From: a virus
IMG/VR virus record: IMGVR_UViG_3300042534_000414
Coordinates: 1 to 63,321 of that record
DNA length: 63,321 nt
Strand: one strand, 5' to 3'
Made by a program: the position numbers and the translations under genes. Below, one piece after another: positions 128 through 62,953 of this stretch. The notes under the pieces are model-generated. The model had not been told where the DNA came from. It was given only the letters and a program-made list of their open reading frames with translations, and did no database searches. Position 1 is the first letter of the stretch; every line of letters starts with the position of its first letter.

Positions 128-256
128 AGAAACTATCTGTAATAGCTTGTAATCAGTTTCTATGGGTACACTACGTACCTTTTGTGTTTTAATTAAATGG
201 TATTGTTCTTTAGGAACATTAATTGTGTAGATTTCTTGTTTGCTAATTGTTGCCAT
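17..256 (-). CDS. Hypothetical protein, 79 aa
   Basis: This is a small leftward gene whose product I do not recognise. It starts with ATG and its first 14 bases overlap the end of the next gene upstream (243-470). Its TGA stop overlaps the ATG of the HNH-like gene at 62897-63214 once the circle is closed (an ATGA junction), so the two are probably translationally coupled. The protein is basic, has no membrane segment and has no motif I can name. An RCACAATT-family word (on the minus strand, at 221-228) lies in its first codons. Confidence 0.6.
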   Translation of the reverse strand: MATISKQEIYTINVPKEQYHLIKTQKVRSVPIETDYKLLQIVSHVKGNTPTEAIICKVTHKATYNTHFRKMLTLNYVIK

Positions 257-470
257 GGTTGTAGTATATTCTTTTAATGTTTGCTGGATAAATTATTATT
301 GTATGTTTTGTTTCTTCATCTGGATAATTATTTTGCGTAGAATCAATTCTAAATCTACCATGAGATAGTTTAGTTATTTTATTTACTTCTCCTAGACAAG
401 TATCTTTAAACCTTTTATCTGTTTCAGAAAAACATTCACCACTTGTTGTTTCTATGTAATGTAATATCAT
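243..470 (-). CDS. Hypothetical protein, 75 aa
   Basis: Small leftward gene with an ATG start, lying one base after the stop of 472-702 and overlapping 17-256 by 14 bases, so it belongs to the left-arm operon. The product carries no recognisable domain. A run of hydrophobic residues near the C-terminus (TIIIYPANI) looks like a buried strand and not a membrane helix. Confidence 0.6.
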   Translation of the reverse strand: MILHYIETTSGECFSETDKRFKDTCLGEVNKITKLSHGRFRIDSTQNNYPDEETKHTIIIYPANIKRIYYNHGNN

Positions 471-471
471 T

Positions 472-702
472 CTAATAAATATTAAATTCCAAAAATCCTT
501 TTGCTATTGCTACTTTAATTTCTTCTTCTTTTATTTCCGGTCGTAAATCTGTTGTTATCCTTGCTTCTTTCTTGTTGTACTTGATATTTAAATCCTCGAT
601 ACCTCTTTCTAATGTAATCTTAATATCCTTATCATCAAAAGGCGAATCAATTATTTCAGTTACTTGCCATTCAAGCTTTCTTAATCTTCCCTTGTTGTAC
701 AT
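472..702 (-). CDS. Hypothetical protein, 76 aa
   Basis: Small charged protein (many Lys, Glu and Asp) that I do not recognise. Its start overlaps the last 32 bases of the nuclease-like gene at 671-1201, and its stop is followed almost at once by the ATG of 243-470. Tight packing supports translation as part of the left-arm operon. The ATG is the only good start. Confidence 0.55.
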   Translation of the reverse strand: MYNKGRLRKLEWQVTEIIDSPFDDKDIKITLERGIEDLNIKYNKKEARITTDLRPEIKEEEIKVAIAKGFLEFNIY

Positions 703-1201
703 ATTCTTCTAATGTTAATATTGGTGTGTATTTAATTTTTCTTAGTTTCTTTGTTTTTGTCGATAGGAATTGTGCAGGCGTAAAACTCTTTTTGAAGAAA
801 CTAGGTGGCTTAACTAGGTTAACATAAATATTATATTTTTCCCATACCCACTTAATGTTTATCATTACTTCCCTTGTCATATTTTTAAAATCAAATTCTG
901 GTTTAATTTCAATTGCGCTTGTTAGGAATACATCACAATACAAAGGTGTGTTTGATTTAACATTGCTTTCAAAAATAGTAGCGAATATTCCTATTGCTTT
1001 AGGCTCCCACTTAATCATAAAATCATAAGTGTATTCATGAGGGTGTAAAACAAACTGTTCTTTTTTACCGATATTCCTGCACAATTTGGAGGATAAGGGT
1101 ATAGCTTCTGGCTCGTATTCGTATCGTTCGATATACCCATTAGATTTTAATTCATCTAACCAAAGGGAAAAGAAATATTCTTCATTGGATTTATATTCCA
1201 T
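671..1201 (-). CDS. Putative PD-(D/E)XK endonuclease
   Basis: This 176-aa protein has the layout of a small phage endonuclease or Holliday-junction resolvase of the PD-(D/E)XK fold. It has an N-terminal SNEEYFFSLWLDEL helix, a YTYDFMIKW strand that supplies a candidate catalytic Asp near residue 60, and an AIEIKPEFD strand near residue 97 with the E-x-K pair. A KYNIYVNLVKP strand follows. Family knowledge: such enzymes cut branched or displaced DNA during phage recombination. The operon, with exonuclease, annealing protein, SSB and primase-helicase, fits that role. The exact family and substrate are inference; a Vsr-like or transposase-like nuclease is an alternative. It overlaps 1191-1421 by 11 bases. 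Confidence 0.5.
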   Translation of the reverse strand: MEYKSNEEYFFSLWLDELKSNGYIERYEYEPEAIPLSSKLCRNIGKKEQFVLHPHEYTYDFMIKWEPKAIGIFATIFESNVKSNTPLYCDVFLTSAIEIKPEFDFKNMTREVMINIKWVWEKYNIYVNLVKPPSFFKKSFTPAQFLSTKTKKLRKIKYTPILTLEEYVQQGKIKKA

Positions 1202-1421
1202 CTTGCTTAATCATCTCAATTAGTTTCTTTAAGTCCTCAATTGAGTTGTAGTTTTTGATAGGGAATTGTGTTTCCATCTCTTGACTATCTCTAAGGCATA
1301 AGCTTAGTTCACCTTTCTCGAAGTAAATATAATTGTTTCCTGACAAATCTAAATCAAGATAAAGACAATGCGCTATTGGTTGGAAACCTAAATCAAGTAA
1401 TTGTTTACGAGTAAATTGCAT
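1191..1421 (-). CDS. Hypothetical protein, 76 aa
   Basis: Small leftward gene with an ATG start whose end overlaps the nuclease-like gene by 11 bases. The N-terminus (MQFTRKQLLDLGFQPIAH) reads like a short helix followed by beta strands. I cannot name a family. About 40 bases separate it from the stop of the paralogue gene at 1463-2083. Confidence 0.6.
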   Translation of the reverse strand: MQFTRKQLLDLGFQPIAHCLYLDLDLSGNNYIYFEKGELSLCLRDSQEMETQFPIKNYNSIEDLKKLIEMIKQDGI

Positions 1422-1462
1422 AACAGTTTGTTTTAAAGTATTTTATACAAAAGTATAAATAA

Positions 1463-2083
1463 CTATTTGATTTTAGTTATTGATTTTATATCTTTTTTTA
1501 AAACACATTTAACTTTGTCCGATTTATCACTAAAAGTTAAATTTAAATCGTATTCATCTTGTTGCCACAATAAACCGTAAATGTACTCATTATCGTTTCT
1601 TACCACCTCCACAACATCACCAGTTTTAAACTCCGAAAAGTCTATTTTTTTGGTGGGTAGTTGGGCGTGTTCAAATGTTCTATAATCTTTATCATCATTA
1701 GGATTTACAGCCATGAATAACCCTTTGAATTTACCTGTAATTATTTTGTTTAAACAAATACTTGTAACATCCCACACCTCCAACTCCACAGGCTCACTAA
1801 ACTCACAAGTATCTGGAAGTTCATCAAATTTACCCTCTTTGGCTAGTTGGGTGTATTTTTGGTTTAAGCTTACCTCCTCCCCCGAAAAATCAAAGTCATC
1901 AGGTAAATTCCTTTTAGCATCGCTTGTTATAGGCGGATATTTACCTAAATTAACATAATTCCAAAAACGATAAGTTATTGTACTCCAATCAAAAGCTTTT
2001 TCTAAATCATTATTTATATTACCTTTATCCGTAAAATACTCCGCCATTCTGCGGTAAGGCTGTTTTAAATCTTTAATTTTCAT
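1463..2083 (-). CDS. Hypothetical protein, paralogue of 2462-2959
   Basis: This 206-aa protein shares with the 165-aa product of 2462-2959 a central block, YTQLAKEGKFxxLPxTCEFSEP, and a C-terminal half that starts with GDVVEV and ends with D-I-K-S-I-K/T-K-(L/I)-K. The two genes are clearly paralogues separated by one unrelated gene. The C-terminal part reads like a small beta barrel (KOW- or SH3-like), but that is a guess. I chose the ATG at 2083; an ATG at 2110 in the same frame would overlap the upstream gene and adds only nine residues. Confidence 0.6.
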   Translation of the reverse strand: MKIKDLKQPYRRMAEYFTDKGNINNDLEKAFDWSTITYRFWNYVNLGKYPPITSDAKRNLPDDFDFSGEEVSLNQKYTQLAKEGKFDELPDTCEFSEPVELEVWDVTSICLNKIITGKFKGLFMAVNPNDDKDYRTFEHAQLPTKKIDFSEFKTGDVVEVVRNDNEYIYGLLWQQDEYDLNLTFSDKSDKVKCVLKKDIKSITKIK

Positions 2084-2102
2084 AATATAAATTTTAAGGT
2101 TG

Positions 2103-2462
2103 TTACACAATTCCGTTATAAATCATCAAATAATCATACAACTCACCAGAGTTCTTAATGTAGTATTGCTTATCACCATCAGGTGTCTTGTGAGTAATAG
2201 CTAACTCATTAATGTATTCATTCTTTCTTCCAAAGTTTAGTTCGTACACATAGTAGGCAATTGTGCAATGAACATTTCCATCTTCATCAATAAAAGGCGG
2301 ATATATCTGCTGCAATATTTTTAATGTATCATCAATAAACTCTCCACCAATAAAGTCAACAGTACCACCTAAAGCACGAGAAACCTCTCTTGTTTTTTCT
2401 AGGTACTTGAAATAATTTACTTCAAGCCTATCAATAATTTCACAAAATATTTTCTTTTCCAT
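2103..2462 (-). CDS. Hypothetical protein, 119 aa
   Basis: Leftward gene whose ATG overlaps the stop of 2462-2959 by one base, which suggests coupled translation. The protein has an N-terminal helical part and a beta-rich C-terminal half (CTIAYYVYELNFG). No catalytic motif, zinc site or membrane segment is visible. It lies between two paralogous genes. Confidence 0.6.
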   Translation of the reverse strand: MEKKIFCEIIDRLEVNYFKYLEKTREVSRALGGTVDFIGGEFIDDTLKILQQIYPPFIDEDGNVHCTIAYYVYELNFGRKNEYINELAITHKTPDGDKQYYIKNSGELYDYLMIYNGIV

Positions 2463-2959
2463 TACTTTAGTTTTTTAATTGATTTAATATCAGTTATCAT
2501 TCTTAAAGTACCTGATTGTTTACCAAAACTTATGATAACTCCTCTTTGATTTATAGTGTGTATCATACCGAAAAAGGATCCAAAGCTTTCTGTTTCTACT
2601 TCAACCACATCACCTACTTTATGTTCAGCAGGTTCTTGTATTGTATAAGCCAATTGCCAATTTTGGAAGTTAGCTTCAAAAAACCTACCTTTTAATTTAC
2701 CAATAATCAAAGCTTCTTTCTTTTCACTACTATATAAGTTACTTACTAAAAGCTTAACTGGTTCGCTAAATTCACAAGTGCTTGGTAATTTGTTGAATTT
2801 ACCTTCTTTAGCTAATTGTGTATAAACCTCGTTTGGATTAACTCTAGTTACATAATCACCTATTGGGTGTATTATTTTACCTCCATTGTTTAAATAAATT
2901 TGTTCACTTACTTCTTCCTCTTTATCTGAAAAACTACTATATCTATATATTTCTGCCAT
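2462..2959 (-). CDS. Hypothetical protein, paralogue of 1463-2083
   Basis: A 165-aa protein that shares the YTQLAKEGKF block and the C-terminal GDVVEV half with the gene at 1463-2083. The N-terminus is different and shorter, so duplication was followed by N-terminal divergence or exchange. It follows the putative annealing protein by one base. The function is unknown. Confidence 0.6.
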   Translation of the reverse strand: MAEIYRYSSFSDKEEEVSEQIYLNNGGKIIHPIGDYVTRVNPNEVYTQLAKEGKFNKLPSTCEFSEPVKLLVSNLYSSEKKEALIIGKLKGRFFEANFQNWQLAYTIQEPAEHKVGDVVEVETESFGSFFGMIHTINQRGVIISFGKQSGTLRMITDIKSIKKLK

Positions 2960-2960
2960 C

Positions 2961-3671
2961 TTACAAATGTTTAAACACAGTTAATAAATCATTGTAGCTT
3001 CCTTTGTGTAGTAAATCGTTAAATGATTTAAACTTCACAGAAATTTCAGCTTTAATCATTGCGCCAATCAATAAGTTTTCATCAAACTTACCTACCTTAC
3101 GTAACCATGCGATTACTTCTTCCCTATCTTTCTTGTCTCTTATAGTTCCGGTTACTTCTTTGAAGACAGGTATTACTAATTGTGCAACCTCCTTTTTTGG
3201 TTCAGGTGTAACATCTAACTTTAATTGCTTCTTAAATAAAGCTTCTTCCATTAGTTTTTTAGCAACTTCCTTACGTTTCTCTGCGTTAATATCCTTTACT
3301 TGCTCCTTAGCAGATTCTATATCCTCTTTAGTAGCTACATTTGAATCATCCATTGGAACTCCCTGTTCTGGAATACCTGCAAACGACATTGCTCTACCAA
3401 CAGCAGAAGTTTCTGCGTTTTCTAGGAAGTGTACATAGTTTACATCACCAACGCCTTCTATTTCTAGTGCGTGTGCTTCATACACAATTCCGTTAATGGT
3501 CAACTTCGCCTTTACAATAGCGAATAGCTTTGGCTTTCCTGCAACATCTAATCTTGTATCAAGTTTGATTACATCTGTTTCTACTGAAACATTCCATTCG
3601 CCTTTTTCTTTAAGGTTAATAATCCTTTGTTTAACCTTTAAGTAATTGTTGTTAAAGTCTTTCTCTTTCAT
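2961..3671 (-). CDS. Putative ERF/Rad52-like ssDNA-annealing protein
   Basis: A 236-aa protein from the ATG at 3671; an upstream GTG at 3695 would add eight residues. Residues about 50-110 carry a beta-hairpin followed by the signature ENAETSAVGRAMSFAGIPE. This resembles a motif seen in phage ERF-type and related recombination-associated proteins, which pair complementary single strands. A Lys/Glu-rich linker and a small C-terminal domain follow. The neighbours support recombination: a coiled-coil protein, then a YqaJ-type exonuclease, the usual partner of an annealing protein. The ERF assignment rests on one motif plus context and should be tested by profile search. Confidence 0.45.
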   Translation of the reverse strand: MKEKDFNNNYLKVKQRIINLKEKGEWNVSVETDVIKLDTRLDVAGKPKLFAIVKAKLTINGIVYEAHALEIEGVGDVNYVHFLENAETSAVGRAMSFAGIPEQGVPMDDSNVATKEDIESAKEQVKDINAEKRKEVAKKLMEEALFKKQLKLDVTPEPKKEVAQLVIPVFKEVTGTIRDKKDREEVIAWLRKVGKFDENLLIGAMIKAEISVKFKSFNDLLHKGSYNDLLTVFKHL

Positions 3672-3698
3672 AGTTTTAAAAGGGAGGGTTTCCACTCC

Positions 3699-4730
3699 TT
3701 AAATGTTATTAATTTGCGTTAAACTCCATTTTTTAAAAGCTTCAAATTTCGCTTTTATTTCTTGGCTTAATTCATTGTTAACATTTGTTTGTGGTAATTC
3801 AAATGAGTTAACCCATGCGCTTAATTGGTTTTTAATTGGTGCTTTTGCTAATTTTTCGGTTTCTTTTTTTTCAGTTTCCAATCTTGCTAATTCCTCTTGT
3901 TTAGCTTTTTCTTCTGCTAATATTTTTTGCTCTAATTCTTCCGAAAGTTTACGTGCTTTTTCTTGTTCAGCCTTAATAATTACCTGTTGCTTTTCTCTTT
4001 CAATTTTCGCTAATCTTTCAGCTTCTTCACGTTCTTTGCGTGCTTTTTCCTCAATTGCTTTTCGTTCTGCTTCTACCTTAGCTCTTTCTTCTGCAAGTTG
4101 CTTTTCTCTTTCTTCTGCTTCTGCTTTTAATCGTAAATTTTCTAATCTTTGTTGCTCTCTTGCTTCCTCTTCTGCTTTTTCTTTTGCAATTCTTTCTGCT
4201 TCAATCCTTTCTAATTCTTTTTGATTTGCTTCAAATTGCATTTTTGCGCCAGTTAAAACTTTTTCAAAATCTTCTTCGCTTAACGCCCTTAAATTAATTC
4301 CAAACGGTACAAATTCAGCAAATGGCTCTAAAGTTCCTTTTCTATCAGCTTCTAATTCATCCAACCTTTTAGCCTCTTTAATTTCTGCGTGTTTTTCGAT
4401 TTGCTCCAAATCATTCTCCATACGCTCATTAATAGCTATTTCTTTGCGCTTAATAGCATCCACAAACTGCCCACCTTTTAAGAAATAATCTTTAGTTGTT
4501 TTGTGCCAAACGTTAATTCCTTGGGTTCTGTTTTTTTGAATTAACAAGCGTAACTGTTTAGCTTTTTTTGAAGTTTCTAAATCCTCAATGTCTAGTTTTA
4601 CAACTTCATTAAATTGTTGTTCCATAATTTTACGCTCTTCGATAATTTGAGGTAAATTAGATAATAACTCATTCGCCTGTGTAGGCTCAATACCAAACTC
4701 CGTTGGGTTTAAAATTAATTGTGCTTCCAT
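3699..4730 (-). CDS. Coiled-coil recombination-associated protein
   Basis: A 343-aa protein. Residues about 1-160 are helical, and about 165-300 form a long Glu/Lys/Ala-rich coiled coil with heptad-like repeats (for example AEEREKQLAEERAKVEAE). The C-terminus is a short globular end. Proteins of this type (DUF1351-like and similar) are commonly encoded between phage exonuclease and annealing genes. Here it sits exactly there: the exonuclease lies just upstream and the putative annealing protein 28 bases downstream. A structural or bridging role is inferred. No nuclease or ATPase motif is present. Confidence 0.5.
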   Translation of the reverse strand: MEAQLILNPTEFGIEPTQANELLSNLPQIIEERKIMEQQFNEVVKLDIEDLETSKKAKQLRLLIQKNRTQGINVWHKTTKDYFLKGGQFVDAIKRKEIAINERMENDLEQIEKHAEIKEAKRLDELEADRKGTLEPFAEFVPFGINLRALSEEDFEKVLTGAKMQFEANQKELERIEAERIAKEKAEEEAREQQRLENLRLKAEAEEREKQLAEERAKVEAERKAIEEKARKEREEAERLAKIEREKQQVIIKAEQEKARKLSEELEQKILAEEKAKQEELARLETEKKETEKLAKAPIKNQLSAWVNSFELPQTNVNNELSQEIKAKFEAFKKWSLTQINNI

Positions 4731-4746
4731 TTTAATTTAGATTTGA

Positions 4747-5868
4747 TTATTTATAGTTTTTAATATTTACTCCAAAATAAGTTCTACTACCTTCGTGGTT
4801 ACGGTGTACTACTCTACCATTCTCACCAAAGGTTAATTCTTCACAATCTTTCATTGTGTAAAGCAAATTGTTTTTGTACAATTGTTTTTTATCGGATAAT
4901 TCCTTTTCTTGATCCAATATCTTTTTGTATCCAACAGCAATAGCCCAATCCTCTTCATTACCTTGCTTTTCTTTTTTCTCGCTAGTTTCTCTGTACTTCT
5001 CCTTCCAAAAGTCCTCGTAGCCTTTGTTTTGTTCTGGAGAAGGTTCTAAAGCATCTAATTGTGCAACGTACTCTTCCTTTTTCTTTTCATCAAAACAAAA
5101 CTCTAATTCGTAATAGATAGGGCGCGCAGTTTCAACTAAATCCCAGAATTGCTTAGTTTCAGTTAATACCATTTCTTTAATACCCTCATTCATGTAAATA
5201 GGATAAACTTCAAAATCAGTACCTCCTTTAAGTGCGCCTATTTCACAGTAATCAACTTCCCAAATAATCATTTGTTGGTGTGTTTGAAAAATGTATCTAA
5301 CTGGTAATCCCAATTCGTATTTTTCAGCAGCAGCAGTTGAAATGGTTTTAATCTCTAAAGGGTATGAGAAATCAATTATCTCACCTGTAAATGGGTTTAC
5401 CTGCCCTTCGGGTACTAAGAAGTCAAAAGAAGCGGATAAGTAAGGATATTTAATGTTTATTGCATAACAATTAAGTTCCTGAAAATTACGTATCTTTTGC
5501 CCTGCGTATCTATTATCTATATACCCTTCGGGTGTAGCATCGTAATATTGCCAGGCTGTCGCCACATTTCTTTCTAATTCCAATCCCCAAAAGGTAAATT
5601 TAGATTTAATTTCAGGAAACTTCTTACCAATCTTACTCCAAAATAATTTTGCTCGGATTCCATATTCATCATAGCCTCCCTCACAAGCGGTTGCGGTCTC
5701 TGATGCGCCTAATGTGTTTACTCTGAACTCGTACCAGTCTACGTTTTTTGTTCCGTTTTCGTTAAATTGATTAATAAAGAAGCCATATACTCCTTCTTTA
5801 AGTTTTTTACAGTATTTAGCGTACTTCTCTAAGTGTGCAAGTTCCTTTGGAAAATCTTTCATATTCAT
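4747..5868 (-). CDS. YqaJ-like phage recombination exonuclease
   Basis: This 373-aa protein matches the lambda-exonuclease/YqaJ fold, which degrades one strand of duplex DNA to leave 3' tails for an annealing protein. Visible family motifs are the N-terminal LGASE (residues 53-57), WGLELERNVA, an Asp in a strand before SASFDFLVPEG, the catalytic PLEIKT (about 170-175) and the QTHQQM helix near 196, followed by the conserved CEIGALKGGTDFEVY. The length is somewhat above the family norm because of a charged C-terminal extension. Two ATG codons (5868 and 5862) are equally plausible. A TAAATTTG -7-like box lies at 5877-5884 on the minus strand, just upstream. Confidence 0.85.
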   Translation of the reverse strand: MNMKDFPKELAHLEKYAKYCKKLKEGVYGFFINQFNENGTKNVDWYEFRVNTLGASETATACEGGYDEYGIRAKLFWSKIGKKFPEIKSKFTFWGLELERNVATAWQYYDATPEGYIDNRYAGQKIRNFQELNCYAINIKYPYLSASFDFLVPEGQVNPFTGEIIDFSYPLEIKTISTAAAEKYELGLPVRYIFQTHQQMIIWEVDYCEIGALKGGTDFEVYPIYMNEGIKEMVLTETKQFWDLVETARPIYYELEFCFDEKKKEEYVAQLDALEPSPEQNKGYEDFWKEKYRETSEKKEKQGNEEDWAIAVGYKKILDQEKELSDKKQLYKNNLLYTMKDCEELTFGENGRVVHRNHEGSRTYFGVNIKNYK

Positions 5869-5890
5869 ATTTTTATCAAATTTATAAAAC

Positions 5891-5922
5891 TAAAATAGGC
5901 TCCCCTAAGAAAACCTATTTTA
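5891..5922 (-). terminator. Hairpin between exonuclease and MazG genes
   Basis: The 9-bp inverted repeat TAAAATAGG / CCTATTTTA (5891-5899 and 5914-5922) has a 14-base loop and A/T-rich flanks. It lies in the 86-base gap between the MazG-like gene and the exonuclease gene, with a TAAATTTG box just beyond. A partial terminator followed by a new promoter is the likely reading; the U run is weak. Confidence 0.45.
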
Positions 5923-5954
5923 TTTATTTATATTAAAACTTTTATTTATAGATT

Positions 5955-6536
5955 TTATCTATCCTTCACAAAGGTACCTCCCTCCATTCTCCCTGTTCTA
6001 CCTTTAATTACATTGTAGGCACTCTTAATACAGGTTTCAACATCCATCTTGCACAATTTAGCCAATAAAGTTAGTACAACAATACAATCTCCGATAGCAT
6101 CCTCTATCTCTTCTGCGGATTCATTCTCTATGCCTTCTCCTAACTCTGTAACTTCTTCGATAAGTTTGGAAAATTGTGTAGCCACCGTACCATGATCTAA
6201 AATCCCTTTATCCTTACCCCATTGTACTATCTTTTCAAAGTAATCTACTTTAGGGCGCGTAACTTCAATTTCCATTAACTCTAAGTTATTTGTAACTAAG
6301 CTGCTGTTATGGATTAACCTTTTAGCGTTATCCGATAACACTTCGCTGTAAGTTATCTCCCTACCATTAACTTCTACATCGGTGTTGTGGTATTCGTTTA
6401 AAATACCTCTAATTGTGTTTGCTTCTCGCTTTAAACTGTTTCTTAATAAATCTACTTTTTCTTGTAGTTCATCAATCTTTTTGAATTTGATGATAAATTC
6501 TCCGCCAGAGAAATCAACTTGTACTGTCTTTTTCAT
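5955..6536 (-). CDS. MazG-like nucleotide pyrophosphohydrolase
   Basis: A 193-aa protein. The C-terminal half (about 96-193) carries the MazG motif set: W-G-K-D-K-G, then KLIEEVTELGEG (EExxE at 127-131), then EEIEDAIGDCIVVL (ExxD at 143-150), ending with KGRTGRMEGGTFVKD, a typical phage MazG-like ending. These enzymes hydrolyse (d)NTPs or alarmones to monophosphates and are common in phages. The N-terminal 95 residues are an extra helical domain, possibly coiled coil, that I cannot assign. It sits in the replication cluster. Nucleotide specificity cannot be read from sequence. Confidence 0.8.
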   Translation of the reverse strand: MKKTVQVDFSGGEFIIKFKKIDELQEKVDLLRNSLKREANTIRGILNEYHNTDVEVNGREITYSEVLSDNAKRLIHNSSLVTNNLELMEIEVTRPKVDYFEKIVQWGKDKGILDHGTVATQFSKLIEEVTELGEGIENESAEEIEDAIGDCIVVLTLLAKLCKMDVETCIKSAYNVIKGRTGRMEGGTFVKDR

Positions 6537-6541
6537 AATTA

Positions 6542-7018
6542 TTACTTAAATGGATTACCTATTACTTTTTTTAAATCTATTTTCTTTTCTTCTCTGTATT
6601 GATTACGGTATTTCTCATAGATATTCATCCTAGAAATGTATTCGGGCGTACAGTATTTATAATCTGATTCCATGTGGAAACTATCATCCCTTAATGCTTT
6701 AAATACTTTTAAATCATCTTCGGCTGTATATCCTGCTTTTCTAAGTGATTTGAATTGTCTTTGAGCCTTTACATCCGCATACTTGAAATTCCTTTCTAAT
6801 ATCGAATTAAAATCATCAACAAAGATTCTGTAATCTTGTTCTTTATTCGTTGAGTGTATTACTCCCCAAATGAACTCAAAATGGGTTTGTTTAGCATCCT
6901 TGAAGCTACCCATATAAATTTCTAGTGCCTTTTCTTTTGTCATTTTGCTAATTGTGTATGGATTAAAATTGGTTGCCGATGGCTTGTGTACATCTTTTGT
7001 CGGCTTTAATATTATCAC
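6542..7018 (-). CDS. Phage replication-protein C-terminal-like domain
   Basis: The 158-aa product has, from about residue 65, the pattern FNSILERNFKYADVKAQR followed by LRKAGYTAEDDLKVFKAL and YCTPEYISRMNIYEKYRNQY. This closely follows the conserved C-terminal domain found in many phage replication proteins (Phg_2220_C type). In those proteins the N-terminus is usually a winged helix, which is missing here. It may act as a helicase-loader or replisome-binding subunit; the SSB and primase-helicase genes just upstream support this. The start is GTG at 7018; an in-frame ATG at 6943 would give 133 aa without losing the domain. Confidence 0.55.
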   Translation of the reverse strand: MIILKPTKDVHKPSATNFNPYTISKMTKEKALEIYMGSFKDAKQTHFEFIWGVIHSTNKEQDYRIFVDDFNSILERNFKYADVKAQRQFKSLRKAGYTAEDDLKVFKALRDDSFHMESDYKYCTPEYISRMNIYEKYRNQYREEKKIDLKKVIGNPFK

Positions 7019-7052
7019 TAACCCTAGGTGTCCGAAGCAACCAATATTTTAA

Positions 7053-7721
7053 TTAAAATGGTAAATCACCATCCTCTTCCTCGTAAGTAGATTCTTCTGA
7101 TGCTTTGTAAATATCAGGTTTAGTTACTTGCTCAATCGGATCTTTAGTAGTCATTACACTTGCTTTAGGTAAACCAACTACTTTTGAAATGATAGTAGGT
7201 AATACAGTTCCTAATAAGTATTTATCCAATTCAGTATAATCACGAATAATATCTCCTGCGATTTTATGTTCAGTTACATACTTCTCGGTTAAAGCCTTCA
7301 TATCTAAACCCCATTGTAGTTTATCATTACTACCATTTGCTTTAGTTACAAATACTGGAAACCCTTTTTCGCCCATCATTGTCCAAAACGATAAAGATTC
7401 AATCTTATCGGCAGTTGTTAAACATGAAATTAATTGTCTTGATACGTTAGTCATACCTAAGTTTAACAAGTATCTTTCTTGTGCAAAATCATCACGTAAG
7501 ATAATCTCTAGTACAGGTTTTTTCTTACCTTCTACTTCAATTTCTTTGTAACCGATTTTTTCAACACCACCATCAAAGGCGTTATTGTTTTCGATAACAA
7601 CATACTTGTCGCCATCTTTCTTCTTAAATTCAAAGAAACATTCCTTGCTTCCTTTTTTCAAGCCTACTAACTTCACATATAAGTTAGCGTAATTGTCTGT
7701 TTGCTGATTTCCTCTAGCCAT
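7053..7721 (-). CDS. ssb: Single-stranded DNA-binding protein
   Basis: A 222-aa protein with a beta-rich N-terminal region consistent with an OB fold (YANLYVKLVGLKKGSKECFF and the strands that follow). It has a flexible linker and a strongly acidic tail ending in DGDLPF. An acidic tail with a terminal Pro-Phe or Phe is the hallmark of SSB proteins and recruits partner enzymes. It is encoded immediately downstream of the primase-helicase. It would coat single strands during replication and recombination. It resembles phage SSBs of the T7 gp2.5 or crAss-like type more than bacterial Ssb. Confidence 0.75.
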   Translation of the reverse strand: MARGNQQTDNYANLYVKLVGLKKGSKECFFEFKKKDGDKYVVIENNNAFDGGVEKIGYKEIEVEGKKKPVLEIILRDDFAQERYLLNLGMTNVSRQLISCLTTADKIESLSFWTMMGEKGFPVFVTKANGSNDKLQWGLDMKALTEKYVTEHKIAGDIIRDYTELDKYLLGTVLPTIISKVVGLPKASVMTTKDPIEQVTKPDIYKASEESTYEEEDGDLPF

Positions 7722-7763
7722 AACATTTAGATTTAGTTTATATTAAGATTAATTGTGTACGTA

Positions 7764-9830: not shown

Positions 9831-10050
9831 TATCAATAACAAATTTAACCCCTAAAATATTCTTTACTTCCCTATGGTTTTTCACACCGTTATAACTCAT
9901 CTTATTATCCTTTGCGTATTTACTTATTGTACAAAGGTTCAAATATAAACCACATACTTCAATTATTTGCACTAAACATTCATTTGATAGTTGGTTTTCC
10001 GTACTCAAATTGTGCAACCTACTTATTACTTTTTCTTCTAATTCATTCAT
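9823..10050 (-). CDS. Small putative DNA-binding protein, 75 aa
   Basis: From the ATG at 10050 the product is 75 aa; an upstream in-frame start would extend it into the inverted repeat at 10085-10114. The C-terminal part, TISKYAKDNKMSYNGVKNHR, has the spacing of a helix-turn-helix recognition segment, so DNA binding is possible. Its end overlaps the primase-helicase start by eight bases, implying coupled expression. Confidence 0.5.
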   Translation of the reverse strand: MNELEEKVISRLHNLSTENQLSNECLVQIIEVCGLYLNLCTISKYAKDNKMSYNGVKNHREVKNILGVKFVIDND

Positions 10051-10084
10051 AATTAATGATTTATTATTGGTGCAAAAAATTGAA

Positions 10085-10114
10085 TTGCGGTAATATACTG
10101 TTATGTGCAATTTT
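10085..10114 (+). repeat. Inverted repeat beside serine recombinase, left copy
   Basis: This 30-bp sequence begins TTGCGGTAATATACTG and continues TTATGTGCAATTTT. It is repeated in inverted orientation at 10324-10353 with 26 of 30 matches, and all four differences are transitions. It covers the stop region of the gene at 10113-10388. Its ends TTGC and GCAA are themselves inverted, as in recombination sites of serine invertases. Confidence 0.75.
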
Positions 10115-10388: not shown

Positions 10389-10457
10389 ATTATTAAATTT
10401 AGTGTTTCAAATAAAGTTTAGTGGTTTAATGCCCCACCTTCGCCAAGCCCGAAAACG

Positions 10458-11108: not shown

Positions 11109-11167
11109 GTCTAATTGTGTATCGTTAATTTTATAAAAGCGGAAAATTCAGTTTTTATAAGTTATTG

Positions 11168-11482: not shown

Positions 11483-11500
11483 TTTACTAATTGTGTATCG

Positions 11501-12111: not shown

Positions 12112-12182
12112 ATCCTTTATTTTTTGTAAAATTACACTATGTTTTTAAATTTCAAAACATTTTTTGATTGTATTTTTCTATA

Positions 12183-12891: not shown

Positions 12892-12892
12892 T

Positions 12893-13239: not shown

Positions 13240-13240
13240 T

Positions 13241-14098: not shown

Positions 14099-14117
14099 TT
14101 GATTTAGTTTATTCTTG

Positions 14118-14531: not shown

Positions 14532-14560
14532 ATTTAATTAAGTTTAATTGTTTGCTTGGA

Positions 14561-15897: not shown

Positions 15898-15903
15898 TGT
15901 CAT

Positions 15904-46614: not shown

Positions 46615-46623
46615 ATTTAAACT

Positions 46624-48438: not shown

Positions 48439-48441
48439 ATT

Positions 48442-56628: not shown

Positions 56629-56675
56629 CAAAAAAAATTAGTAACTTTATAACCGAAATTTATAAAAAATAAATT

Positions 56676-57317
56676 ATGATAAATTCAGAGCAATTTTGGA
56701 GAATAGGACAGGACTTAAATGGAACTGTTGTAGATAGTGGAATTAGATTAGGGGTAAGCAAATGGGATATTTTGTTTAGTTCGGAATTAGTTTCTGGAGA
56801 TACATTAGCATTTACTTTAAATGGTGTATCCATCTCACAAGCATTTACAACTGATTTCGCAACTACTATTACTGCATTAGAGGCACAGATTACTGCTGTT
56901 GATGAGGTATCAAGTACGGCAAAAGGTGTTGTTAACTTAGATAAGAATGGAGTAAAATTCACTTATAAGGTAACAATTATCGGTAAGGAAAATGTGCAAC
57001 TAAAAGCAACTGCATTTACTGTAATCAATACTGCTGTACAAAAGTTCAATGCACAATTATTTGAAATACAATCCTTACAAATCTTACCTGCTGTATTAAC
57101 AGTAGATGCAAATAACGTAGAGAAGTTAAGAGTAGATGTACCGGTAGCAGGAACAACGTATGAGGGTTATGCTTTGCCAGGAACATTAAACGGAACTCCT
57201 GCATGGAAGATTAAAAAAATAGTTGTAGCAGGAGCGTTAACTACCACTACTTATGCAAGTGGTAACAGCAACTTCGATAAAGTTTGGGATGATAGAGCAA
57301 CATATACTTATTCATAA
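56676..57317 (+). CDS. Structural protein, tail appendage region
   Basis: A 213-aa beta-rich protein starting MINSEQFWRIGQDLNGTVVD, with Val/Thr-rich strands. It follows the giant protein after 47 bases and its TAATG overlaps the tail fibre gene. It is probably an adaptor or small appendage protein attaching the fibre. No specific family is recognised. Confidence 0.45.
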   Translation: MINSEQFWRIGQDLNGTVVDSGIRLGVSKWDILFSSELVSGDTLAFTLNGVSISQAFTTDFATTITALEAQITAVDEVSSTAKGVVNLDKNGVKFTYKVTIIGKENVQLKATAFTVINTAVQKFNAQLFEIQSLQILPAVLTVDANNVEKLRVDVPVAGTTYEGYALPGTLNGTPAWKIKKIVVAGALTTTTYASGNSNFDKVWDDRATYTYS

Positions 57318-59173
57318 TGGCAATAAATGTACCTGCAATAGCGTTAGCTAGGGGCGAGGTTGCTCCTGATAACAGAGAAGTTTTATGGGAGGATACTTCC
57401 AACATGAATTTACCTTTTTACGAAAGGGTAAAGGCGTATGATAGTAATAGTACCCAATGGCGTATGGTTACACAATTCCCATTAGAATTACTAAACGAAT
57501 TACGTAAAGTAGATGGAGATGGTAGTGGATTAGACGCTAACTTCTTACAAGGAAGAACAGTTAACGATATTATACAATTAGCGAAAGATGGTTCATTTAC
57601 TTTACCTAGTGGATTTATTTTTATTGGTGATAGCTTGGGTAATGCTACTGCGAGAGCGTTAAGTGGTGATGCTACATTACAAAACACAGGTGCATTAATA
57701 TTAGCTGCAAGTGGGGTAACAGCAGGAACGTATGATTTAGCAACTGTAACTGTTGATGCTAAAGGTAGAGTAACAAGTGCTAGTAGTTACACAATTACTG
57801 TTGATGATATTCCTGAATTACCACAAAGCAAGATAACTGGATTGGTTACTGATTTAGGGAATAGAGAGTTGTTAGCTAACAAGGAGAATAGTGTAATTGA
57901 TACTTCAACTACTAAGTACCCTACGGTTAACTTATTGAAAATAGGATTAGATACTAAAGAGCCAACTATTACAGCTGGCACAACAGGGCAATATTACCGA
58001 GGCGACAAAACCTTTCAAACACTAGATAAAACAGCCGTTGGATTAGGTAACGTAGATAATACAAGTGATGCAAATAAGCCTGTAAGTTCAGCTCAACAAA
58101 CCGCTTTAGATGGTAAACAGGACACTTTAGTAAGCGGTACAAACATCAAAACAATAAACAGCGAAAGTTTATTAGGCGCAGGGAATATTACAATAAATAG
58201 CCAAAACTTAGGTACAAATGATTTAACACAAGTTGATGCTACACGTACTTATGAAATGGGTACTGGTAACAGAATACTTAGGTTTTTAAGTAATGCAGTT
58301 GAAAAAATAATATTCAATACAGCATCAGGAAGTCCAACTTTACAAGCAAATAAAAGTGGAAATGGTCCAGCTATTAAGGCTAATAAAACAAGTGGCAGTG
58401 GCTCGGCTTTTGAAGTTGTGGGGGGTACAAGTGATTTTGGTAGTAATAAACTAATCAACGTTGCAGACCCTACCAATCCACAAGATGCGAGTACTAAGGC
58501 TTACACAGATACTAAGAATATCAACGCATACGATGATGCCGATATTAGCCCACTAACAAGGCGTACAAAATACAGAGCTTTAGAATACATTGAGTTTGTT
58601 GATGATGCAATTAATGAAGAAACATTGGTGCAATTAAGAGCCGACAGCATTAAGGATGCGGAGGTAACAAGATTTGGCGAAAATGGGAGTGGGAATGTTG
58701 ATTTAAAAATACAAGAAAATAAACTACCAACAGGGGATGTTAACGGTTTTGCGATTGAATATACTGCAAGTGCTGAATGTATAATTGGTTTAGATGCTGA
58801 TAGCGAGATTAAAGAGTTTGAAGTAGTAGAAATTTACAACATTCTTAAAGAGGAGGATGTAACAGCCGATAAAACACTTGCTTTATTGGATATTAACGGA
58901 AATTCTGCAAACGTAAAAGCAAAGTTTGAAATTAGTGCAATAGCAGTACAAAATACAACCGCCAACGCTGTTACTCTTAACATTGGTAGTACTGCTTTAG
59001 GTACGGATGTTGTAAATGCTTTTGTTTTACCTGCAAGTTCGCCACCGATTAAACTACCTTTAGGCACAACTTTTTTTAGTATAACAAGCGGACAAAATTT
59101 ATTTATTTCTTCTGCTTTGTGGAATAGTGCAAGTATTAATATTCATGTAACAATTTCAAAGATATGGCAATAG
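57317..59173 (+). CDS. Tail fibre / receptor-binding protein
   Basis: The 618-aa product has the typical phage fibre repeat YYRGDKTFQTLDKTAVGLGN, then VDNTSDANKPVSSAQQTALD (about residues 217-260), with GKQDTLVSG and TINSESLLGAGNITI following. The N-terminal part (about 1-100) should bind the virion and the C-terminal 250 residues form the adhesin head. It would recognise the host surface. Its end overlaps the lectin-like gene by 10 bases. The region past 57.80 kb has no RCACAATT word for 3.3 kb, in keeping with exchange of receptor-binding modules. Confidence 0.75.
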   Translation: MAINVPAIALARGEVAPDNREVLWEDTSNMNLPFYERVKAYDSNSTQWRMVTQFPLELLNELRKVDGDGSGLDANFLQGRTVNDIIQLAKDGSFTLPSGFIFIGDSLGNATARALSGDATLQNTGALILAASGVTAGTYDLATVTVDAKGRVTSASSYTITVDDIPELPQSKITGLVTDLGNRELLANKENSVIDTSTTKYPTVNLLKIGLDTKEPTITAGTTGQYYRGDKTFQTLDKTAVGLGNVDNTSDANKPVSSAQQTALDGKQDTLVSGTNIKTINSESLLGAGNITINSQNLGTNDLTQVDATRTYEMGTGNRILRFLSNAVEKIIFNTASGSPTLQANKSGNGPAIKANKTSGSGSAFEVVGGTSDFGSNKLINVADPTNPQDASTKAYTDTKNINAYDDADISPLTRRTKYRALEYIEFVDDAINEETLVQLRADSIKDAEVTRFGENGSGNVDLKIQENKLPTGDVNGFAIEYTASAECIIGLDADSEIKEFEVVEIYNILKEEDVTADKTLALLDINGNSANVKAKFEISAIAVQNTTANAVTLNIGSTALGTDVVNAFVLPASSPPIKLPLGTTFFSITSGQNLFISSALWNSASINIHVTISKIWQ

Positions 59174-59928
59174 AACAAAAAATATTAACGTTTGGTACTA
59201 ACAAGGTTGGAACTATTGGTGGTAAGTTAATGGGGTTTGTTAATCCTATTTTAAAAGCTGTGCCATACGTTTGGTATAATAATGATTTAGATACAATTTC
59301 AAAAACAGGAGCGGATAGAGTAAGTGAATGGAGGGATAGCAGTGGTAATGGTAGGCACTTAACACAAGCAACGGGAGGAAGTCAGCCGTTGTGGGTTGAC
59401 AGTCTATTGAACGGACAAGGGGGAATTAATTTCGATGGTGCAAGTACAGCCAAATTTCTATCTACTACGTTTGCTAGTGATTTAACTGGAGTTGTTGATG
59501 TTTTTTTTATTGGTAGAATGTTGACCGCTCCGAGTACATTCCCTTATTATTTTGGTGGGGTATCTGCTACTAAGCGAATTATAATGTATTGGTTGTCTAA
59601 TAATTATTATTTAGTAACAACAGACCCGAGTGGCGAGTTATTTCCAGCCATTAAAGCGCAAACAATTCCCACAGGATTTCAGTATATGAACCCAACTTTT
59701 GATTCCACAAACTCAGAGTATAGAGAAAACAGGAATTTAATTTCTTCTTTTGTTTTGCGTTCGGTTGTTGCTAGTGGTTTAAGGTTTGGTGCTAACCAAG
59801 ATAATCCACCAAATGCGCAATCAAGATTAAACGGAACAATCATGGAGTTTGTTGCTTACAACAGAAAAGTAACAGCCGATGAACGAATTGCTATTAATGA
59901 TTATTTTATGTCGAAATATGGTTTATAA
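59164..59928 (+). CDS. LamG/concanavalin-like adhesin
   Basis: A 254-aa protein. After a short N-terminus (about 40 residues), VSEWRDSSGNGRHLTQATGG, then GINFDGASTAKFLSTTF, then FFIGRM mark the beta-sandwich of LamG or concanavalin-type lectins, which bind glycans. ADERIAINDYFMSKYGL is the usual closing helix of this family. It is probably a second receptor-binding component working with the fibre encoded upstream. Confidence 0.65.
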   Translation: MAIEQKILTFGTNKVGTIGGKLMGFVNPILKAVPYVWYNNDLDTISKTGADRVSEWRDSSGNGRHLTQATGGSQPLWVDSLLNGQGGINFDGASTAKFLSTTFASDLTGVVDVFFIGRMLTAPSTFPYYFGGVSATKRIIMYWLSNNYYLVTTDPSGELFPAIKAQTIPTGFQYMNPTFDSTNSEYRENRNLISSFVLRSVVASGLRFGANQDNPPNAQSRLNGTIMEFVAYNRKVTADERIAINDYFMSKYGL

Positions 59929-60373
59929 AATAGATTTAAGCGTTTACACAACGCAAATCCAAACATTAAATAATGAATGGATAACACAACATAGGGAGAA
60001 CAATCCACAAGATACCATTACACAACGTTATGTTGATGAATGGATATGGCGTGGGTTTGGTTATGTTGTTAAAGATGCAATTACAGAGCAGTATATTACT
60101 GATTTTGCGGAAATAGTGGAGGAATTACCAACAAGGTGGCACGAAGATAAAGCCGTTCAAATCATACAAAATAAAAGCGGTGTAGTTTGGGGGGCAATGA
60201 ATGAACCTGAGATTGCTATGGCTTTAGCAATGCACCGAAAAACAACGAATATGCAAACCTATGAAGAGGGCGATAAACTTTATTTCTATGCTGAAACAAT
60301 TCTACCTGAACACCAAGCGATTTTTGATGCCTATCCACAACTTGAAATAACTATAAACCATGCAGAAAACTAA
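59918..60373 (+). CDS. Hypothetical protein, 151 aa
   Basis: I start at the ATG at 59918, which overlaps the lectin stop by 11 bases; the longer frame would begin inside the lectin gene. The product, MVYKIDLSVYTTQIQTLNNE at the start, is acidic and helical. It may be a fibre chaperone or small appendage protein by position, but no family is recognised. Confidence 0.5.
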   Translation: MVYKIDLSVYTTQIQTLNNEWITQHRENNPQDTITQRYVDEWIWRGFGYVVKDAITEQYITDFAEIVEELPTRWHEDKAVQIIQNKSGVVWGAMNEPEIAMALAMHRKTTNMQTYEEGDKLYFYAETILPEHQAIFDAYPQLEITINHAEN

Positions 60374-60500
60374 CATTGAAAGAGTTGCATTTATTGTATT
60401 ATTTGGAATATTTTTTTACTTGTTTGCGGTTAAATGCACATCAGATAAAAAGATAGATAAAGTAAAACATCCTCACTATCCTTATGTAATTGAAAAATGA
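60360..60500 (+). CDS. Small membrane or lipoprotein-like protein, 46 aa
   Basis: ATG at 60360, TGA at 60498-60500. The product starts MQKTNIERVAFIVLFGIFFY, and the hydrophobic segment ends LFAVKC, so the Cys could be a lipoprotein site or the protein is a single-pass membrane peptide. Its TGA overlaps the holin-like ATG (ATGA), so it belongs to the lysis unit. It could be an o-spanin-like or antiholin-like peptide. Confidence 0.5.
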   Translation: MQKTNIERVAFIVLFGIFFYLFAVKCTSDKKIDKVKHPHYPYVIEK

Positions 60501-60712
60501 AAATTAATTTTAACAATATGAGAAACAAATTAGCTATATTTTACAGCTTTGTTTCGGTGGTTTACCTTTTTTGCGTAACTTTTATGACTATACCTAAAGA
60601 TAACCATAGGGTAGTTGATACAGTACTAGGTTTTTTAATAGGTACTTTAGTTGCGACAATTATTAATTATTACTTTGGAGATAGTCAAACAAATTCTAAA
60701 CCAACTGAATAA
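60497..60712 (+). CDS. Holin-like protein
   Basis: A 71-aa protein with two membrane segments (LAIFYSFVSVVYLFCVTFM and VVDTVLGFLIGTLVATIINY) and a short charged C-terminus. Size, topology and position just upstream of an amidase suggest a class II-type holin that opens the inner membrane at lysis time. Its TAATG overlaps the next gene. Confidence 0.6.
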   Translation: MKINFNNMRNKLAIFYSFVSVVYLFCVTFMTIPKDNHRVVDTVLGFLIGTLVATIINYYFGDSQTNSKPTE

Positions 60713-61218
60713 TGGAAAACTTTGAGCCATATACTGCACCTTATAAAGACCAATTGTTTGGTAAGCCTTACAGATTCTTTACAGAGAAAGCTGTTTATGT
60801 TAGCTTTTTAAAACAAGTAAATACATTTAAGTTAGGGATTAATTATTACAATTGTCTAAACCTAATTTTTAAAAGTAGGTTTTGGGAAACACATGGCTTC
60901 GATGCTAAAACATTTGTAAAGGATAACTACCAAGGTAACATTTCAAGTTTTTTTCATGACTACCCTTCACGTTGTGGTTTCGGTGGTAAAAAAAATGATA
61001 TTATTTTCTTATATTTGGAGCTTAAATCTGGAGCAGGTATAAAATGGGCATTTACTCAATACTTTGCTGTTAGGGTTGCTGCACAATTATTCATATTGAG
61101 AGATCACATAAAAGGAGAAAGAGTACAGGAACCAGAATGGCTTAAAGATTTGTATAAAGAAACAATTGTTAAACTAAAAAGAGAATATAAAATCAAATCA
61201 TGGAAATTACTAATCTAA
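60712..61218 (+). CDS. DUF1353-like protein in the lysis module
   Basis: A 168-aa protein. The region SSFFHDYPSRCGFGGKKNDI followed by a long helix ending FAVRVAAQL follows the DUF1353 pattern (an H-D pair, then N/D-D-I-F, then a helix), a family found in phage and prophage late regions with a possible hydrolase or lysis-linked role. It overlaps the amidase gene by 19 bases. An RCACAATT word lies near its end at 61081. Confidence 0.5.
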   Translation: MENFEPYTAPYKDQLFGKPYRFFTEKAVYVSFLKQVNTFKLGINYYNCLNLIFKSRFWETHGFDAKTFVKDNYQGNISSFFHDYPSRCGFGGKKNDIIFLYLELKSGAGIKWAFTQYFAVRVAAQLFILRDHIKGERVQEPEWLKDLYKETIVKLKREYKIKSWKLLI

Positions 61219-61655
61219 TCCTACCAAAAGCAACAAGACCTTTGAATAGCATTATTATTCATTGTGCAATGACAAGACCAACAATGAATACAAGTGTGTA
61301 TGATATAGAACAATGGCATAAGGCTCGAGGTTTTAACGAGATTGGTTATCACTATTACATTAAGTTTAATGGCTCACTACACTTAGGAAGAGATTTAAAT
61401 AAAGTAGGAGCGCATTGTAAAGGTAAAAATACAGGTAGTATTGGTATCTGTTTAGAAGGTGGTTGGGATGGTAAATATGACTATACGCCTGAACAAGAAA
61501 AAACCTTAGCTTCATTGTTAATTCACTTAACAGAAGAATACACAATTTCCTTACAGAACATACATGGACATAACGAGTTTGATAAGGGTAAGACTTGTCC
61601 GAACTTTTTTGTTCCTGATTGGGTAAAAAGATTAGATAAATATTTATTTGTATAA
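61200..61655 (+). CDS. N-acetylmuramoyl-L-alanine amidase (endolysin)
   Basis: A 151-aa protein that matches T7 lysozyme-type amidases in length and motifs: SIIIHCAMTRP gives zinc ligand His21, EIGYHYYIK gives the catalytic Tyr near 50, HCKGKNTGSIGICLEGG is the middle strand, and IHGHNEFDKGKTCPNF supplies His124 (or 122), Lys131 and Cys133. It cleaves the amide bond between muramic acid and L-alanine in peptidoglycan at lysis. It has no signal peptide, so it depends on the holin. Confidence 0.9.
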   Translation: MEITNLILPKATRPLNSIIIHCAMTRPTMNTSVYDIEQWHKARGFNEIGYHYYIKFNGSLHLGRDLNKVGAHCKGKNTGSIGICLEGGWDGKYDYTPEQEKTLASLLIHLTEEYTISLQNIHGHNEFDKGKTCPNFFVPDWVKRLDKYLFV

Positions 61656-61675
61656 AAATAAACGTATTTAAGAAC

Positions 61676-62002
61676 ATGAATGAGATAAACGATTTTACGA
61701 AATTAATTCTTAATGAACTAGAGCGAAATAGAACTAGCGTAGAGAATTTAAAATTAAATTTAGATAAAAAATTTGATGATTTGCAACGTGAAATTGTTAA
61801 AATACAAACAGCGGAAAAAGATTTGCACGATTTAAAACTGTGGCATAAAGAAGTGACTGATACATGGAGCGCAAGGCAGATGAAAGAAGCTAAAGATGAG
61901 ATTTATGATCAGAAAAATAAATGGTCTAAGGCAATCGGTTTATTAATTGCAATTGAAATAATAGTAGGCTTTATAATTTCGTGGATATTAAAGAAATTTT
62001 AA
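61676..62002 (+). CDS. Coiled-coil membrane protein of lysis region
   Basis: A 108-aa protein with an N-terminal coiled coil (about 1-80, KLNLDKKFDDLQREIVKIQT) and one C-terminal membrane helix (KAIGLLIAIEIIVGFIISWI). This matches small phage proteins near endolysins that may be holin partners or i-spanin-like, although spanins usually have the membrane helix first. The role is inferred. Confidence 0.5.
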   Translation: MNEINDFTKLILNELERNRTSVENLKLNLDKKFDDLQREIVKIQTAEKDLHDLKLWHKEVTDTWSARQMKEAKDEIYDQKNKWSKAIGLLIAIEIIVGFIISWILKKF

Positions 62003-62003
62003 A

Positions 62004-62420
62004 ATGGAAACATTTAAAAAATTTGAAGATATTAAAATCCTAAGTGAAAAAATATCGAATATTTTTAAGCAAAACGAATTGCTGAAAATGGCAATTAATA
62101 CAAGTCATGAAGGAATTGCAATTTTGAACGAAAAAGGAGAATACATTTATCTTAATAAAGCACACGCGGAAATGTTTGGTTATAGCGTAGATGAATTAAT
62201 TGGTAAAACGTGGCAAATTTTATATAAAGAAAAAGATGTTGAATACTTTGTAAATGAAGTATTCCCAATTATAGAGCAGAATGGTAAATGGTCGGGTAAA
62301 TATATTGGTTACGCTAAAAATGGAAATCCAGTAAATGAAGAAGTATATTTAACATCTTTACCAAACGGTGGTTTAGTATGCACTTGTAGAGTTGATATTT
62401 GTAAACCATGTAATAAATAA
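62004..62420 (+). CDS. Stand-alone PAS-domain protein
   Basis: A 138-aa protein. Residues about 28-130 form a PAS sensor fold: INTSHEGIAILNEKGEYIYL, NKAHAEMFGYSVDELIGKTW, then a helix, WSGKYIGYAKNGNPVNEEVY, and a final strand. No kinase, cyclase or DNA-binding domain is attached. The last residues contain several Cys (VCTCRVDICKPCNK). PAS domains sense ligands, redox or light and mediate pairing; PAS-only genes are rare in phages. It lies between lysis genes and is probably expressed late. It might tune lysis timing or interfere with a host sensor kinase. Confidence 0.75.
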   Translation: METFKKFEDIKILSEKISNIFKQNELLKMAINTSHEGIAILNEKGEYIYLNKAHAEMFGYSVDELIGKTWQILYKEKDVEYFVNEVFPIIEQNGKWSGKYIGYAKNGNPVNEEVYLTSLPNGGLVCTCRVDICKPCNK

Positions 62421-62437
62421 TTATTAATTTTAAAAAT

Positions 62438-62953
62438 ATGGAAAATATAAAAAACATAATCATTATCTTACTTAGTATAATACTTTTAAAATGTTGTTTA
62501 AAAGGTGAAGATAGAATTATAGAAACAGAGATTCAGTATTTACCTGGTAAATCTGATACTGTTTATATAACACATACAGTAGTTAAAAAAGATATTCTCC
62601 CTTCTTCTGTTACAGTTATTCGTGATACTATACGTGATACATTAGTTTACGAATTTAATCGTTTTACGACTGATTATAATGATAGTTTGTTAAGCTTACA
62701 AATTGTGCAAGATATAGATGGTGTATTACTTAAATCTGATATTCAATATACTTTTAAGCAACCATCAGTAACTAGAGTAGATACATTAAAAATAACCGAG
62801 CGTATAGAGAAAAATGGATTGTACATCGGTACACAATTTGGGTACAAGAACATCACTCCATACGCATCTTACTTATTCAAATCCTATAAGATAGATTTAG
62901 GAATTAATCTTTTTAATCGTACCCCTATGGTTGGTATTGGCGTAAAGCTTTAA
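62438..62953 (+). CDS. Membrane-anchored spanin-like protein
   Basis: A 171-aa protein with an N-terminal hydrophobic helix (IIIILLSIILLKCCL) ending in Cys residues that could be lipidated, and a periplasmic part with DTVYITHTVVKKDI and RDTIRDTLVYEF. The C-terminal 50 residues are beta-rich (YIGTQFGYKNITPYASYLF). The layout suits a spanin or spanin-like component that joins inner and outer membrane at the end of lysis in Bacteroidota phages. Its last 57 bases overlap the convergent HNH-like gene. Confidence 0.45.
   Translation: MENIKNIIIILLSIILLKCCLKGEDRIIETEIQYLPGKSDTVYITHTVVKKDILPSSVTVIRDTIRDTLVYEFNRFTTDYNDSLLSLQIVQDIDGVLLKSDIQYTFKQPSVTRVDTLKITERIEKNGLYIGTQFGYKNITPYASYLFKSYKIDLGINLFNRTPMVGIGVKL

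Follow-up and report, generated by a model that had tools for sequence, protein, structure and literature searches.

The window, by which we mean the whole viral record IMGVR_UViG_3300042534_000414 with its 63,321 bases (A+T 68%), carries 101 exact copies of the asymmetric 9-bp word TRCACAATT (R is A or G), an enrichment of more than 30-fold, which in the collections searched is limited to one phage clade. Its numbers, placement and conservation support selection acting on DNA rather than on protein, and the word is probably read by a site-specific binding protein which the phage itself encodes.

An earlier note on this DNA had counted RCACAATT by hand at 106 sites, where 108 copies are found on both strands (63 plus and 45 minus). 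Since 101 of these have a T in front, the unit is taken as TRCACAATT, position 2 being A in 51 and G in 50 copies; the first copy starts at 221 and the last ends at 62838. The statements that about two-thirds of the bases are A+T and that the word is no palindrome hold, and the longer form GGYTRCACAATT, described as frequent, is present in 21 of the 108 copies of RCACAATT. Markov models trained on the window with the words masked expect 2.0, 2.9, 1.8 and 1.8 copies of TRCACAATT on both strands (orders 3, 4, 5 and 6), nowhere near the roughly 100 copies by which, according to the note, such a model could account for the word; an unmasked order-3 model expects 3.8. The observed counts are recovered by a model of maximal order when the words are left unmasked in training, but only because its sub-words derive from the word itself. 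Shuffling of synonymous codons within genes yields on average 17.4 and at most 30 in-gene copies (500 shuffles), an expectation inflated by the words' own codons, versus 85 observed. As the earlier note states, the word occurs in all frames and between genes: with 60 hand-chosen open reading frames (ORFs), 56 sites are sense and 29 antisense, each of the three frames being used, and 16 lie outside. The commonest sense frame, T-GCA-CAA-TT (Ala-Gln; 38 of the 56 sense sites), is what would be expected if composition, codon use or protein repeats accounted for the word, but the masked models and the codon shuffles fall far below the observed number, which refutes composition or codon use as cause, and antisense sites and sites outside ORFs are conserved as well; the probability left to this explanation is negligible. 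The spacing is near random (mean 626 bp, coefficient of variation 0.94), with gaps from 51 to 3292 bp.

Conservation was followed in six related viral contigs (G001–G006), which are counted as three lineages besides the window because G003–G006 are 99–100% identical; over aligned DNA, G001, G002 and G003 are 90.4, 84.1 and 74.0% identical to the window. Aligned window sites are intact in 89 of 100 cases in G001, 68 of 81 in G002 and 26 of 48 in G003 (1, 20 and 53 sites, respectively, could not be aligned), compared with 53.9, 28.4 and 10.7% of other aligned 9-mers; an A/G swap at position 2 was scored as intact for word sites and not for the control 9-mers, a small bias in favour of the word. 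A slightly different alignment of G002 gives 69 of 82 sites kept, and by class 43 of 47 sense, 17 of 22 antisense and 9 of 13 non-ORF sites were retained. New sites are also gained, 3, 9 and 12 being present in aligned DNA of G001, G002 and G003 only, and the density of TRCACAATT is 1.1–1.6 per kb in all six contigs. Where the sites encode Tyr-Thr-Ile, the tripeptide is written TACACAATT in 13 of 16 cases. The claim of the earlier note that selection acts on DNA or RNA and not on protein is thereby supported as to DNA versus protein, by the conservation, the antisense and non-ORF sites and the codon shuffles.

Recognition of the word looks all-or-none, because its fifty one-mismatch neighbours are at background (54 copies in total versus 50.2 expected). 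Numbered from the first T, the pooled sites of the window and G003 show weaker preferences outside the core, for G at positions −6, −2 and +10 and for G or T at −3, and these extend the word to about 19 bp, AAGRWKGNTRCACAATTWG. The flanks have the identical shape at sites outside ORFs, which points to more than codon context. The distance from G(−6) to the centre of CACA is about one helical turn, as would suit a protein contacting successive major grooves.

The record most likely represents an entire genome, circular or circularly permuted, because a stretch of 127 bases is identical at both ends (1–127 and 63195–63321) and the alignment to G001 is circularly permuted. The terminase resembles those of phages of Flavobacteriia: identity is 32% to Flavobacterium elemo phages and to MW202828, an isolate from Manatee Spring, and lower to gut crAss-like phages and those of Cellulophaga and Tenacibaculum. 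In 50 kb of each of six named relatives, 0, 0, 0, 0, 0 and 2 copies of the word are present, and 79 loci with a TerL 36–45% identical (the best 80 of 581 candidates, less L001, a member of the clade) contain 6 copies in 860 kb versus 9.4 expected, so that a general mark of related phages is ruled out. A scan of viral sequences with the 18-base form AGGWTGNTRCACAATTNG gave 53 stretches, a clearly raised density being confined to contigs of the clade. The check proposed in the earlier note, a search in related phages and bacterial genomes, accordingly came out positive within the clade, in three lineages, and negative in distant relatives and in 395 bacterial genomes.

The limitation to one clade points to a reader encoded by the phage and makes a Chi site or uptake signal of the host unlikely. 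A word belonging to an unsampled host would be expected to be non-palindromic, dense and present in all frames, as this one is. However, among 84,980 species genomes scanned with the 19-base form AAGGWTGNTRCACAATTNG, 67 stretches with one match each and no saturated genome were found, and 395 genomes of one class (that of a Flavobacteriales genome) have at most about 65 copies of TRCACAATT per Mb (our own arithmetic from rounded genome sizes) versus 1595 in the window. The extended forms catch only a fraction of the sites, so that a genome with the core in other flanks could escape the 18- and 19-base scans, but not the count in the 395 genomes. Together with the viral scan, these results render a host-owned word improbable, and the uptake-type signal considered in the earlier note is further disfavoured by the missing halo of near-matches.

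The orientation of the words is uneven (Table 1). Outside the interval 17.3–23.3 kb, in the following termed the block, 65 of 87 words are sense, whereas within it 1 of 14 is sense and 13 are antisense (Fisher p 1.9e-6, the block having been picked after the data were seen), and from either side the words of the block point to a position near 22.5 kb. Of the 11 non-ORF sites outside the block, 9 are sense (hand count). The codon positions of the four block-right words are unchanged in G001 and G002, and four of the five in-gene block positions that differ in codon from the window (in G002 or G003) are antisense. Block sites unmatched at the DNA level (antisense in 3 of 3 cases in G001, 6 of 6 in G002 and 8 of 9 in block-left of G003) were at one stage taken as new; this was dropped, as at least one of them (25911 in G003) proved to be shared when proteins were compared, and G002 and G003 have others in common. 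With moderate confidence, we regard the uneven orientation as a selected polarity.

Table 1 Groups of TRCACAATT copies (starts of the 9-bp words) and protein-coding features of the window
Feature	Position	Strand	Word starts or evidence
Left-arm words, sense; genes on −	221..17120	−	23 words: 221, 768, 2259, 2814, 3178, 5057, 6172, 6950, 7751, 8230, 8555, 9045, 9267, 10008, 10523, 11113, 11489, 12211, 12363, 14016, 14620, 15503, 17112
Left-arm words on +		+	10 words: 1078, 2104, 3481, 6050, 9515, 10821, 11249, 12480, 12768, 16904
Block-left words, mostly antisense; genes on −	17442..22434	+ and −	+: 17442, 18346, 19065, 19449, 20319, 20440, 21292, 21388, 22426; −: 17559
Block-right words, 4/4 antisense to + gene 22559–23239	22774..23238	−	22774, 22968, 23156, 23230
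Right-arm words; genes on +	24356..62838	+ and −	+: 42 words (sense); −: 12 words: 24561, 25024, 27824, 28323, 35014, 35323, 39459, 41904, 43230, 44925, 45594, 62701
YqaJ/RecE-like exonuclease	4747..5868	−	PF09588 5e-07; phrog_434 5.1e-32
Candidate reader: 92-aa stand-alone DnaA domain-IV protein	11833..12111	−	Pfam PF08299 Bac_DnaA_C E 1.5e-12; AlphaFold; Foldseek
Second candidate reader: 117-aa protein in the reversed block, weak Cro/C1-type helix-turn-helix (HTH) match	21304..21657	−	Pfam HTH_26 E 0.017, below cut-off

The coding strand explains the orientation of 66 of the 101 words, a single origin placed at 17.3 kb that of 74, and three switches that of 78. The third-position GC skew of the coding strand is +0.13 in the left arm, +0.03 at 13–17 kb, −0.11 in block-left and +0.27 in the right arm, and its change of sign in block-left suits a replication fork that enters from the left. 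Readings based on transcription and on replication are not separated by these data. The block contains the HTH protein of Table 1 and an ORF (18336–19649) whose product weakly matches a polymerase processivity factor. Gene 22559–23239 has an extreme coding-strand third-position GC skew of +0.65 with four antisense words in 681 bases, and profile scans gave no family match for its product. In the 900-base gap in front of it lies a 66-base direct repeat (22294–22359 and 22432–22497; 74% alike, with CCACCGTATGGATACAAGATTTTT in common), and a search of 21500–22700 against Rfam yielded nothing of use. A gene for an AntA-type antirepressor (23400–24152) has no match in G001, G002 or G003.

The words might be polar sites of the phage's own replication or recombination machinery, Chi-like in effect and oriented with a leading strand starting at about 17 kb, where they would steer a helicase-nuclease, an exonuclease or a fork protein. 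This is suggested by the 74 of 101 words that an origin at 17.3 kb would orient, by a skew profile as of a fork crossing block-left against the genes, by an exactness that resembles that of a word-reading machine, by the RecE-like exonuclease which the phage encodes, and by the existence of Chi-rich phages (PMC3784561). Against it, the orientation of the four block-right words is opposite to that required, none of the genomes scanned is saturated with the word, and the Chi enrichment described for lambdoid phages is far weaker, with a median observed/expected ratio of 2.3 (PMC3784561). Moreover, changes in sequence identity within 50 bp of the words number 8, 5, 4 and 3 in four comparisons, versus 8.0, 6.4, 3.1 and 3.7 in rotated controls, and in three of the four the change-points are not nearer to the words than in the controls (one low median, p 0.03). 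Recombination junctions at the words were rejected: mild excesses of alignment ends (for example 11 versus 5.0, p 0.004, for the window versus G003) are confounded, because conserved words themselves end alignments, and no excess within 50 bp appeared in the cleaner change-point test. Selection against Chi is reported for phages that encode recombinases of their own and in addition inhibit the host machinery (PMC3784561). The Chi-like recombination site considered in the earlier note is weakened, since none of the genomes scanned proved saturated, change-points do not coincide with the words and the phage has an exonuclease of its own; the replication-linked reading as a whole is judged unlikely, although not remote.

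Slightly less probable still are genome-organising or self-marking sites, at which a phage protein would coat the DNA in order to condense, package or partition it or to shield it from the phage's own nucleases, direction being a by-product. That the words are spread evenly and almost at random along both strands and hold their density across lineages despite turnover would fit, whereas the reversed block is left unexplained unless the orientation there is due to chance or inheritance.

Our best overall explanation, which we advance tentatively, is that TRCACAATT in its context of about 19 bp is recognised by a DNA-binding protein that the phage clade encodes; among the four roles named in the earlier note, the genome-wide protein-binding mark fits best. 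The phage protein would occupy the approximately 100 words and act in a direction-dependent manner, with the stoperators of Cluster A mycobacteriophages as the closest parallel: transcription running in the direction of the word would be stopped, and the block with reversed words would be left transcribable. If a phage-encoded binding protein is granted, the chances of a polar effect on transcription are a little short of even. Roadblocks formed by full-length DnaA on a DnaA box have reportedly been found to be directional, to go by the title of a study by Schaefer and Messer from 1989. The model combines such roadblocks, DnaA bound inside transcribed regions being described as an obstacle to RNA polymerase (PMC11317965, PMC10950094), with the features of stoperators, which are asymmetric, orientation-dependent sites, bound by a monomer via two domains in successive major grooves (PMC9283540), placed mostly in one orientation relative to transcription and inactive in repression when reversed (PMC9283540, PMC6550527).

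The reading itself would be done by the DnaA domain-IV protein encoded at 11833–12111, an identification which is plausible rather than probable. The Pfam scan covered 30 proteins of the window, and among these it is the one whose known recognition core resembles the word; it leads because the TRCACA of the word agrees with TNCAC, which DnaA boxes have in common. By sequence family, predicted fold and base-contact residues it belongs to DnaA domain IV. Its AlphaFold model has a mean pLDDT (predicted local distance difference test) of 93.1, with the DnaA domain-IV/DNA complexes 3pvp and 1j1v as best Foldseek matches (template modelling score 0.81). Positions 399, 432–435 and 438–439, the base-contact residues of E. 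coli DnaA (PMC5043019), align with R27, K58–S61, I64 and H65, and R27, H60, S61, I64 and H65, which correspond to R399, H434, T435, L438 and H439, are invariant in the four lineages. DnaA boxes are described to vary in the first three and the last positions and to keep TNCAC in the species cited (PMC5043019). Orthologues are present in G001 and G002, and a diverged copy lies at the matching place in G003. The HTH protein in the block is inferred as second candidate, with orthologues in G001 (75%), G002 (69%) and G003 (42%). The window also encodes a serine recombinase (10458–11108).

Several observations weigh against this explanation. Relatives of the DnaA domain-IV protein are encoded in 77 further viral loci (the best 80 of 113, less three clade members), where the word occurs 26 times versus 29.6 expected and TNCACA 1872 times versus 1934, which rules out the word as a general companion of such proteins; phi19:3 and Gundel likewise encode DnaA-like proteins and are without the word. 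The G003 protein is 37% identical and has H in place of D59 (D433 in E. coli), while the word is unchanged, and the word has an additional AATT and does without the TTA of the DnaA box. As to polarity, 22 of the 87 words outside the block are antisense, one of the new block positions is sense, most sites (85 of 101) lie inside genes, unlike stoperators, and no integrase was found among the protein families scanned; replication polarity is a rival, given that an origin at 17.3 kb orients more words than does gene direction.

Enriched words of other kinds were noted in several phages. The nearest named relative, MW202828 (L031), has a word of its own, the exact 16-bp palindrome GTGTCGTTAACGACAC, with 11 copies in 43749–49886, a region of 6 kb of small genes, 7 of them between annotated genes. 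TGATAGTG occurs 14 times per 50 kb in each of phi38:1 (L034) and Calle_1 (L036), where about 1.1 are expected, and in the species group of G003, CTGCAACA is enriched beside the main word (7 versus 0.55–0.61 expected, in 1-kb bins; G006 and G005, loci L006 and L005).

The window is a clear natural example of selection on DNA by which a virus keeps an asymmetric word dense and exact throughout its coding sequence, and searches of open-licence papers found no such phage-wide over-represented word. If a phage protein reads it, stoperator-like control, which elsewhere uses a few dozen intergenic sites, would be widened to about 100 sites mostly inside genes, and could be tied to DnaA-type DNA recognition. 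A more far-reaching version, which we consider doubtful, is that in these phages the DNA-binding half of DnaA has become a direction-reading coat of the whole genome, the orientation of the words, reversed in one block, setting which stretches are open to transcription or replication; this would amount to an orientation code laid over the coding sequence of a virus. On so small a genome it becomes testable how short iterated words such as HIP1, Chi or uptake signals originate and how they remain exact and dense.

Among the known systems, the stoperators of the Cluster A mycobacteriophages L5 and TipsytheTRex resemble the word as asymmetric, phage-specific sites repeated genome-wide, but they number from more than 20 to about 30, lie in promoters and short intergenic spaces and are bound by the immunity repressor, whereas the sites described here are 101 in number, lie mostly in ORFs and include one reversed block; the test of their orientation rule gave 66 of 101 words sense overall. 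DnaA boxes share the TNCAC core, a DnaA domain-IV protein is encoded in the window, and DnaA forms roadblocks in transcribed regions; however, the consensus TTWTNCACA is not matched, as only TNCACA is common, positions −1 to −3 are not TTA and AATT is added, and the protein lacks the ATPase part and would face single sites at approximately 1.6 per kb rather than an origin cluster. Lambdoid Chi is likewise a non-palindromic word, of the 8-mer class, enriched in phage genomes, but it is owned by the host, whose RecBCD/AddAB reads it, and its median ratio is that given above (PMC3784561); the leading-strand test gave its 74 of 101 with 17.3 kb as an assumed origin. HIP1 of cyanobacteria is also exact, iterated genome-wide and flanked by weaker extensions, with a function described as unsettled (PMC4390886), and differs in being a bacterial palindrome tied to methyltransferases. 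The DNA uptake sequences of Pasteurellaceae and Neisseriaceae consist of a dense non-palindromic word of 9–12 bp with weaker flanks and many near-matches. They are owned by competent bacteria, whereas here near-matches are at background and no saturated bacterial genome was found among those scanned. By these sequence comparisons, TRCACAATT stands outside every family tested and is confirmed as a selected, clade-specific, asymmetric phage DNA word.

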